DNA of 33,275 nt, taken from the NCBI GenBank assembly GCA_017439425.1, contig JAFSJE010000087.1:1-33275 (forward strand). The letters are read 5' to 3'. This DNA is from Oscillospiraceae bacterium (GTDB lineage: Bacteria; Bacillota; Clostridia; Oscillospirales; Oscillospiraceae). The notes under the pieces are model-generated. The model saw nothing but the letters and a program-made list of their open reading frames with translations. It had not been told where the DNA came from and searched no databases. The position numbers were made by a program, and so were the translations under genes. Of the stretch, positions 5,358-6,639 are shown piece after piece. Position 1 is the stretch's first letter; every line of letters starts with the position of its first letter.

Positions 5358-5370
5358 GTGAGTAACACAA

Positions 5371-5400
5371 AGCGGACGGGTTTTCCCGTCCGCTTATTTT
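5371..5400 (+). terminator. Terminator between convergent genes
   Basis: AGCGGACGGG (5371-5380), loop TTTT, CCCGTCCGCT (5385-5394), then TATTTTAT. It ends the GH2-GPH operon; the stop codon of the opposing radical SAM gene begins inside its T-rich tail. Confidence 0.8.
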
Positions 5401-6002
5401 ATAACGTAATTGAATAGATCGAGGCTCTTTACGCCCATTTCTCTGAGCTTTTCGGCACTTTTTTTCTGACTTTCCGCATCTGCGTACCCCGGAATGACCG
5501 GCACGCGGACTGTTATTCTGTCGCTCCCGGCAAGGCTTAAGAGAAGCCTGAGATTATCCTCAAAAACCGCCTCCTCACCGCCTGTATAGCGGAAGTAGAC
5601 CGCAGGGTCGAGGGTCTTGCAGTCCACGATGAAGCGGTTGACGCTCTCTGCGGCAAGGCGCACGTTTTCACTCGGCACGTTGAGGCTCGTTTCGGCGTTT
5701 ATCGTCCACGGGCAGAGCTTGCGGAATTCGGAAATAAACTCTGCGTGCAGTAAGCTCTCGCCGCCGCCGAAGGTCACGCCGCCGTTTGTCGCGCGAAAGT
5801 AGAGATCGTCGACCTTAACACGCTCATATAGCTCCCGCGCTGTCACAGGCTTCGGCTTTTTCTCGGCAAGCAGGCGCTTGTTTATGCAGTAAGCGCATGA
5901 GAGCGTACACCCCGCGCCTGCGATAAGCGTGGTCACGCCCTCGCCGTCAATGCCCATTCTGTGCCGCGACAGACCGAGAAGAGGATAGACCGCCTCACTC
6001 AT
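5394..6002 (-). CDS. Small radical SAM enzyme, activase-like, partner of the Cys/repeat protein
   Basis: A 202-aa protein with the radical SAM cluster motif CX3CX2C at Cys32, Cys36 and Cys39 (GCTLSCAYC) and a GGE-like SAM-binding motif GGGES (79-83). It opens with LGLSRHRMGIDGEGVTTL. It consists of the radical SAM core alone: no SPASM, B12 or ferredoxin extension, in the size range between NrdG and glycyl-radical activases. Its ATG overlaps the last 8 bases of the upstream gene, so it is probably translated by coupling with that partner. No glycyl-radical enzyme lies nearby, which argues against a simple activase role. I infer a modifying enzyme acting on, or together with, the upstream protein. 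The radical SAM call is firm; the function is unknown. Confidence 0.85.
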   Translation of the reverse strand: MSEAVYPLLGLSRHRMGIDGEGVTTLIAGAGCTLSCAYCINKRLLAEKKPKPVTARELYERVKVDDLYFRATNGGVTFGGGESLLHAEFISEFRKLCPWTINAETSLNVPSENVRLAAESVNRFIVDCKTLDPAVYFRYTGGEEAVFEDNLRLLLSLAGSDRITVRVPVIPGYADAESQKKSAEKLREMGVKSLDLFNYVIK

Positions 6003-6588
6003 TCTGAGGCTCTTCCTCCGGGAAGTACGCCACGTCGCCCATAAGCGGCTCCGGCTCCTCGGGCGGCATCGGGAACTTGCCCATCAGCACCTCCGGCTCC
6101 TCGGGCTCTGTCTCTATAGCGGGCTCGCCTGCAAGGGGCTCGGGATACTCGACCTCCTCACCGGTCAGCTCCACTGTTTCTGTGGGTTCTATCTCTATCG
6201 CCGGCTCGCCTGCGTGCTCGACCGGAGGCTCGTCGGGAATCTCGACCTCCACGGCTTCCTCGGCAGTCTCTGTCTGCGGCGTGGGAATATTCCCGGTGGT
6301 CTGCTGTGTGATGATCGGCGCGCTGCTTTCCGGCGCGTCTATTGGGGTGCAGGCGCTTGCCGACATCGCCATTCCGGCGCAGAGAGCCGCCACCGCGACG
6401 CTTTTCCCGAGCGCCTCGCGCCGTTTGAGCTCATTTTCGAGGTATTTCAGCTCCTCCTCGCACTTCGGGCAGGTGCCGGAGCACTCGCCCTGGTAGGTGC
6501 ATTCTCTTGTGACGTACGGGATATCGTTCTCATCGGCTATCTTCTGACGAATTTCCTTTAAAATTTTGCATTTGCTCTTTCCGCGCAT
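5995..6588 (-). CDS. Cys-motif membrane protein with acidic Leu-X-Gly repeat tail; possible radical SAM substrate
   Basis: A 197-aa protein of unknown function in three parts. Residues 1-60 are a charged, probably helical region with Cys30-X5-Cys36-X3-Cys40-X2-Cys43 (core CSGTCPKC), which could bind a metal or Fe-S cluster. Residues 62-79 are one hydrophobic stretch ending in SASAC80, a weak lipobox-like site. Residues 81-197 are Pro/Glu/Thr-rich, probably outside the membrane, and hold spaced units starting HAG (125), LTG (141), LAG (152), LMG (168) and LMG (182), most followed by a Pro/Glu-rich linker. ATG 6588 has GGAGG just upstream. The stop overlaps the start of the radical SAM gene. 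I believe I have seen this Cys leader beside the same radical SAM type in other gut Clostridia, but know no named family. Confidence 0.75.
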   Translation of the reverse strand: MRGKSKCKILKEIRQKIADENDIPYVTRECTYQGECSGTCPKCEEELKYLENELKRREALGKSVAVAALCAGMAMSASACTPIDAPESSAPIITQQTTGNIPTPQTETAEEAVEVEIPDEPPVEHAGEPAIEIEPTETVELTGEEVEYPEPLAGEPAIETEPEEPEVLMGKFPMPPEEPEPLMGDVAYFPEEEPQNE

Positions 6589-6639
6589 AGCTTCCGCCTC
6601 CTTTTTATTATTTGACTCTGTAAATCGGTAAAAAGTTCC

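Follow-up and report, generated by a model that had tools for sequence, protein, structure and literature searches.

A radical SAM enzyme related to glycyl-radical enzyme activases and a dedicated Cys-domain partner: a candidate two-gene modification system for surface lipoproteins of rumen and gut Clostridia

Two overlapping minus-strand genes of an Oscillospiraceae bacterium (GCA_017439425.1, contig JAFSJE010000087.1) encode a radical SAM enzyme and a small protein that combines a five-cysteine domain, a lipoprotein-like signal and a repetitive acidic tail. The genes lie in a stretch of 33,275 nucleotides (positions 1-33,275 of the forward strand), hereafter the window. We lean towards reading the pair as a modification system for a surface lipoprotein, in which the Cys domain would bring the enzyme to its client. 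The gene upstream on the same strand codes for a HIGH nucleotidyltransferase (PF05636), and an MFS sugar transporter (PF13347) is encoded by the convergent neighbour. The features of the cassette are as follows.

5394..6002, minus strand: radical SAM enzyme gene, 202 aa, a GRE-activase-like minimal core with CX3CX2C (C32/C36/C39)
5995..6588, minus strand: partner gene, 197 aa, with Cys adaptor domain, lipoprotein-like signal and repeat tail
5995..6002, minus strand: gene overlap of 8 bases, the same overlap being present in 23 of 74 homologous loci
6409..6588, minus strand: putative Cys adaptor domain, residues 1-60, with C7, C30, C36, C40 and C43 in invariant alignment columns
6349..6408, minus strand: hydrophobic stretch 61-79 and lipobox-like ASAC with Cys80, by lipobox pattern
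5998..6351, minus strand: acidic repeat tail, residues 80-197, the predicted exposed product, from motif statistics
6037..6039, minus strand: motif glycine G184 (LMGDVAYFP), the copy nearest the family consensus by eye
6079..6081, minus strand: motif-like glycine G170 (LMGKF), from the tail motif search
6127..6129, minus strand: motif glycine G154 (LAGEP), invariant in five close relatives
6160..6162, minus strand: motif-like glycine G143 (LTGEE), invariant in five close relatives
6597..6603, minus strand: AAGGAGG ribosome-binding site of the partner gene, by eye
5370..5395, minus strand: terminator-like hairpin at the cassette end (-22.3 kcal/mol, z -5.6)

A preliminary description of this DNA had noted the 8-base overlap, the CX5CX3CX2C arrangement and acidic repeat tail of the partner, and the minimal radical SAM core of the downstream product. 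All are borne out: bases 5995-6002 are common to both open reading frames (ORFs), the partner carries C30-x5-C36-x3-C40-x2-C43 plus C7 followed by a hydrophobic stretch (approximately residues 61-79), Cys80 and the acidic tail, and the enzyme with its Cys32/36/39 matches PF04055 at 5.8e-13. The partner has no Pfam match up to E 1.

The pairing of the two genes is real and goes beyond chance. Among 60 related genomes searched, the partner is present in five, the window's own genome counted, and the enzyme in the identical five. A single pattern-based scan across species genomes recovered 201 partner relatives, from which the best 80 were kept; these were chosen by the window query, so that the sample favours the window-type architecture, and according to their record titles they come mainly from rumen and gut Clostridia. 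An enzyme match is found in 75 of these 80 homologous loci, lying downstream of the partner in 74 and upstream in one (L077). Counts of spacing rest on the analyst's choice of start codons; by that choice 41 of the 74 downstream enzyme genes overlap the partner gene, 23 of them by exactly 8 bases, which is the most frequent spacing, and six are more than 60 bases away. At L039 and L065, which have no enzyme match, the sequence stops near the partner, and the genomes of L042, L039 and L065 yielded no enzyme; in the genomes of L049 and L085 it is located elsewhere, adjoining a stand-alone Cys-domain protein. At L051 (4524-5125, plus strand) the enzyme gene is in two reading frames, a possible pseudogene or assembly error, and was counted as present.

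Wider sampling gave the same association. Of 391 genomes sampled across the class, 12 have the Cys domain, the window's own genome counted, and the 12 best enzyme scores (at least 163.7 bits) fall in exactly these 12 genomes, the next radical SAM score being 122.6 bits; the score line was placed at this gap after the gap had been seen, and 46 of the 391 genomes pass 1e-30. A phylum-wide sample of 398 genomes has the Cys domain in two, namely the window genome and G709. The system is sparse within the class, yet present across several families. Viral contigs returned 10 pattern matches, none of them a relative. No third gene is common to more than six of the 80 loci, judged from the longest non-overlapping ORFs of at least 90 codons, with a clustering that undercounts in that it grouped only 51 partners and 43 enzymes; two ORF families in 29 and 24 loci were judged by eye to be antisense shadows. 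The expectation that enzyme and partner are habitual neighbours thus holds across loci and genomes alike, and these data show the two to be dedicated partners.

Scored against NCBIfam, the window enzyme comes closest to TIGR02494, the GRE-activase subfamily model, but its 106.6 bits fall short of the cut-off of 174.35; for TIGR02493 it scores 73.5 bits against 231.75, so that the enzyme stays below the curated cut-offs shown. Thirteen models whose names refer to activases of GREs or ribonucleotide reductases match all 39 aligned enzymes, and the enzyme profile finds pyruvate formate-lyase activating enzyme (PFL-AE, 3c8f), the best solved relative, at 2.1e-25. The D/E-T and D-x-K region matters in the activase active site, and E104-T105 and D127-x-K129 of the window enzyme align with D104-T105 and D129-x-K131 of PFL-AE, with E104, T105, D127 and K129 being invariant in the 39 enzymes. 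C32, C36 and C39 of the SAM cluster are the sole invariant cysteines of the 39-member alignment, in which the C-terminal SPASM/twitch auxiliary-cluster cysteines are absent from the 202-aa enzyme. A maximum-likelihood tree built from 57 sequences separates 35 system enzymes and two enzyme-Cys-domain fusions from 16 GRE-activase-type and four NrdG2 sequences with support of 100/98; the tree is midpoint-rooted, places NrdG2 within the activases and has flagged long branches. The 35 system enzymes are in turn split from the two fusions (support 100/99). These comparisons show an enzyme clade that is, by sequence, related to GRE activases yet separate from them. Placement firmly inside a known activase family, which the preliminary description had named, together with a distant glycyl-radical partner, as evidence against its reading, is contradicted by both the tree split and the sub-threshold scores.

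The Cys domain, about 55 residues with five cysteines and genetically tied to the enzyme clade, has C7, C30, C36, C40 and C43 invariant in 41 aligned domains. It was found in six architectures, each with the same enzyme type adjacent or fused. In the window and the 80 loci it is N-terminal on repeat lipoproteins. Two genomes have it fused to the C terminus of the enzyme (L112, 676-1596; L113, 4707-5654), each fusion being followed by a short protein that by eye reads as an ordinary lipoprotein, with an ordinary signal and LMG or VVG; further fusions were found neither in the family and order of G172 (5 and 9 genomes) nor in the family of G066 (one genome). It stands alone in L156 and L157, is C-terminal on a tubulin/FtsZ-family GTPase in L117 (PF00091, 9.7e-24), and forms the C-terminal end of a 333-347 aa protein in L114 (4728-5729, minus strand) and L115 (4639-5682, minus strand), the L114 protein having no Pfam match. 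Lastly, a Segatella copri plasmid encodes two TonB_C proteins that carry it at the N terminus. The domain is the only part common to all of these architectures and is shown by them to be modular; occurring also fused to the enzyme, alone, and on TonB, tubulin/FtsZ-like and other proteins, it is more than a leader. Its occurrence on client, on enzyme or free is the pattern expected of a docking or cluster module.

Several of these loci have features of their own. The tubulin/FtsZ-like gene of L117 (2383-3606, plus strand) overlaps a gene for the same kind of radical SAM enzyme, and this odd client hints that modification is not confined to lipoproteins. At L115, the ending ENGTVAWY of an ORF further upstream (5954-6319) recalls the tail motif. 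The Segatella copri locus (L011, 3995-5861, plus strand), in which the two TonB_C proteins with Cys domain and a lipobox-like stretch are followed by the enzyme, is a plasmid-borne Bacteroidota version and the sole Bacteroidota case, from limited sampling of that phylum.

Modelled alone, the Cys domain forms a helix, a Cys loop and a second helix (pLDDT 71). Neither Foldseek nor VIA-align gave it a convincing fold match, which does not in itself make the fold new. The AlphaFold model of the L112 fusion as a monomer (pLDDT 90.2, pTM 0.88) has the PFL-AE entries 3c8f, 8fo0 and 3cb8 as best fold matches (TMt 0.85-0.87). Weak zinc-ribbon matches to PF08274 (8 of 41 domains, best 0.003) and a weak LysW match of L157 (0.0017) are in keeping with a domain that may bind a metal, either zinc or an Fe-S cluster. 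Matches of the partner to the ferredoxin-insert region of TIGR02494 (E 0.16 for the window, 0.027 for L014) had raised the idea that the domain is a homologue of this GRE-activase insert, which was rejected on a profile comparison with the inserts of four activases (probability 6%), and sequence matches in the PDB, mainly to GDNF (E 0.05-0.25), were taken as chance.

Following the Cys domain, a fit to the lipobox (PS51257-type pattern) comes after the hydrophobic stretch in 82 of 84 partners, the window's relatives among them, with the cysteine at position 80 in 77 of the 82; L123 (G416) is an exception without lipobox Cys. No lipobox was seen in the tubulin-like, L114/L115 and stand-alone Cys-domain proteins. 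The single hydrophobic helix of the preliminary description is present as a hydrophobic stretch, but its sequence fits the h-region of a signal peptide ending in a lipobox, and the partner is better read as a probable lipoprotein, with its signal after the 60-residue Cys domain, than as a transmembrane protein. A short positively charged N-terminal n-region is missing from the partner, the Cys domain preceding the signal instead, and a 60-residue domain in this position is unusual. Sec, Lgt and LspA are the usual machinery of lipoprotein export, lipidation and cleavage; because they could do the work, the lack of an adjacent protease or exporter would be accounted for.

The tails carry a repeated motif centred on glycine. 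The surroundings of the 752 glycines in 70 non-redundant tails show an excess of Leu at -2 (z 28), of Val at +2 (z 15), of Ala at +3 (z 12) and of Tyr at +4 (z 10). The motif LxG[DEAM][VIP], defined only after inspection of the tails, was counted 151 times in the 80 tails, 73 of which have it, whereas 200 shuffles gave 3.1 copies on average and 10 at most; for a looser form the count is 291 compared with 67.6 in shuffles, and 79 of the 80 tails have it, as do 43 of 80 on average after shuffling. Across 96 overlapping and non-independent homologue pairs, the motif Gly is conserved at 309 of 411 aligned sites, compared with 368 of 717 for other Gly and 3106 of 7728 for other residues, and the -2 residue at 246 of 402 compared with 103 of 230 for other leucines, whereas positions +2 (Val), +3 and +4 are conserved at 46, 40 and 39%, hardly or not above the background of 40%. 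In a single pairwise comparison (window versus G028), dN/dS is 0.01 for partner residues 1-80, 0.17 for the enzyme and 0.35 for the tail. A conserved leader with repeats varying in number, as the preliminary description had proposed looking for, is what the alignments contain: residues 1-80 are conserved, and tail length and repeat number vary.

Some tails depart from this pattern. L081 (2991-4501, plus strand) has three tandem partners, of which two have short tails without the strict motif and one of these also lacks the loose motif. An extra C-terminal region of about 130 aa follows the motif region, by eye, in L019, L022, L023, L024, L038, L040, L041 and L045, as well as in L050, L054 and L059; the partners of L024, L045 and L059, the three scanned, have no Pfam match. 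As general rules, two chemistries were rejected, thioether formation in that the lipobox Cys is the only cysteine in 43 of 80 tails, and aromatic crosslinking in that G-x-[VILA]-x-[YW] sites are found in only 53 of 80. The likeness of the LxG motif to the GRE loop, which reads RVSGYAV (L127, L128, L130) or RVAGYSA (L129) in four other system genomes, is confined to hydrophobic-x-Gly, the +1 residue being mostly acidic or Ala and not Tyr.

In the reading we prefer, the Cys domain would serve as the docking adaptor between the radical SAM enzyme and its client, and docking through this domain is very likely. Placed on the client, on the enzyme or free, the adaptor may itself hold a metal or Fe-S cluster. 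The docked enzyme would then, in the cytoplasm, abstract hydrogen atoms from the client tail, which is probably the substrate. Within the tail, attack would most plausibly fall on the alpha-carbon of Gly in the repeated LxG[DEAM][VIP], the kind of position that the enzyme's relatives attack in GREs, although glycine as the attacked residue is put forward tentatively. The product could be a modified or crosslinked peptide. Export by Sec, lipidation of Cys80 and cleavage by LspA would finally remove the adaptor like a leader peptide, a fate for which we have a slight preference, leaving a lipid-anchored, modified acidic tail at the cell surface. The preliminary description had proposed a membrane-tethered substrate or an electron- or cluster-handling partner; the dedicated pairing upholds the partnership, the lipobox corrects the tether to a lipoprotein, and both roles may be true, of different parts of the partner.

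A broader reading is possible, if doubtful: that an activase has been repurposed to form alpha-carbon radicals on the LxG glycines of lipoprotein tails, with a detachable five-Cys adaptor moving among clients and enzyme, the clients comprising repeat lipoproteins, TonB-like proteins and tubulin-like GTPases.

The invariance of all five cysteines, the weak zinc-ribbon or LysW-like matches, the stand-alone and enzyme-fused forms, and an enzyme that retains just three cluster cysteines would suit a Cys domain that is an electron- or cluster-delivery subunit on an uncleaved membrane helix, with the tail acting as a sensor or spacer and the substrate lying elsewhere. That account leaves the repeated LxG motif and the lipobox unexplained, and in the two fusions the Cys domain is off the lipoprotein, yet a lipoprotein-like gene still adjoins; we regard it as unlikely. 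The tail motif is also left unexplained if the Cys domain is itself the target of the enzyme, C7 being one possible site, and becomes an active redox or regulatory module with tails and other domains as effectors. The presence of this domain in every architecture and the extreme purifying selection on it in the one pair tested are points in its favour, but an enzyme-fused domain would have to be its own substrate, and we consider this proposal improbable.

There is, in addition, the prospect that the enzyme is an ordinary GRE activase lying by chance beside a membrane protein and acting on a distant GRE or on NrdD. Its consistent matches to activase-named models (39 of 39 enzymes), the rank of PFL-AE as best solved relative and the presence of PF01228 proteins in 13 of 17 system genomes are all consistent with such a role. 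However, PF01228 has no match in the window genome (G000) or in G021, G026 and G028, the genomes being 95 (95.5), 86, 98 and 84% complete, respectively, and in these four and in G034 the sole TIGR02494-type match at 1e-20 is the system enzyme. NrdD, which is also a GRE, is present in the window genome, and a second radical SAM gene adjoins NrdD in G000, G026 and G028, identified in G000 and G028 as NrdG2 (205 bits against a cut-off of 131). Because no PF01228 protein was found and NrdG2 lies beside NrdD, a PFL-type client is unlikely in the genomes without a PF01228 match and NrdD is already served by its own activase, and a distant GRE partner was accordingly rejected for the window genome. 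With the enzyme also far under the family cut-offs and in a separate tree group, an ordinary activase is a highly improbable explanation.

The pair suggests that surface proteins of bacteria may be chemically modified in a new way. If our preferred reading is true, radical chemistry would extend to surface proteins of rumen and gut bacteria, and if an activase has indeed been repurposed, surface proteins of anaerobes would be subject to post-translational modification of a class yet to be described. The gene anatomy points to both the client and a candidate residue, and the adaptor could be put to use in targeting a radical SAM enzyme to proteins of choice. The open-licence literature searched, which included parts of PMC8326336, PMC10352776 and PMC11528403, yielded no account of the two genes together, and this is weak evidence of novelty.

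Among the closest known systems, GRE activases are familiar from textbooks and have a single kind of partner. The PFL-AE/GRE activases (TIGR02493, TIGR02494) share with the system enzyme the radical SAM core, the E/D-T and D-x-K residues and the fold of the L112 relative, and possibly an attack on Gly in a short peptide motif. The window enzyme differs from PFL-AE in being about 40 residues shorter at the C terminus and in having no ferredoxin insert, and the system enzyme differs from GRE activases in adjoining a Cys-domain client, forming its own tree group and occurring in genomes in which PF01228 was not found. The rSAM/lipoprotein systems TIGR04133/TIGR04134, reportedly from Haft and co-workers, have enzymes that carry SPASM and likewise place a radical SAM gene beside a putative lipoprotein in gut anaerobes. 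Window-type enzymes lack the SPASM cysteines of TIGR04133-type enzymes; TIGR04133 is not among the 25 listed of 30 families for the window enzyme or the 25 listed of 33 for the 39-member set, and TIGR04134 is not among the families listed up to E 1 for 10 system proteins, the window partner included.

Radical SAM RiPP maturases with RRE and SPASM/twitch (CteB, SkfB and epimerases; PMC8326336) have in common with the pair a conserved recognition part with a variable core and, possibly, C-alpha chemistry, and by sequence a candidate precursor with conserved leader and variable core does adjoin the enzyme here. In contrast to these maturases, the system enzyme has no SPASM cysteines and is too short for an added RRE, recognition would be by a Cys domain without known family, and the expected product is a lipid-anchored tail rather than a secreted peptide. 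The system would thus work like a RiPP or rSAM/lipoprotein system, yet we provisionally place it in neither because it has no SPASM cysteines, no TIGR04134 match and scores under the curated cut-offs shown. For aminoacyl radical enzymes and their activases, the clients are full GRE homologues (PMC11528403), whereas here the client would be a set of short repeats in an acidic tail.
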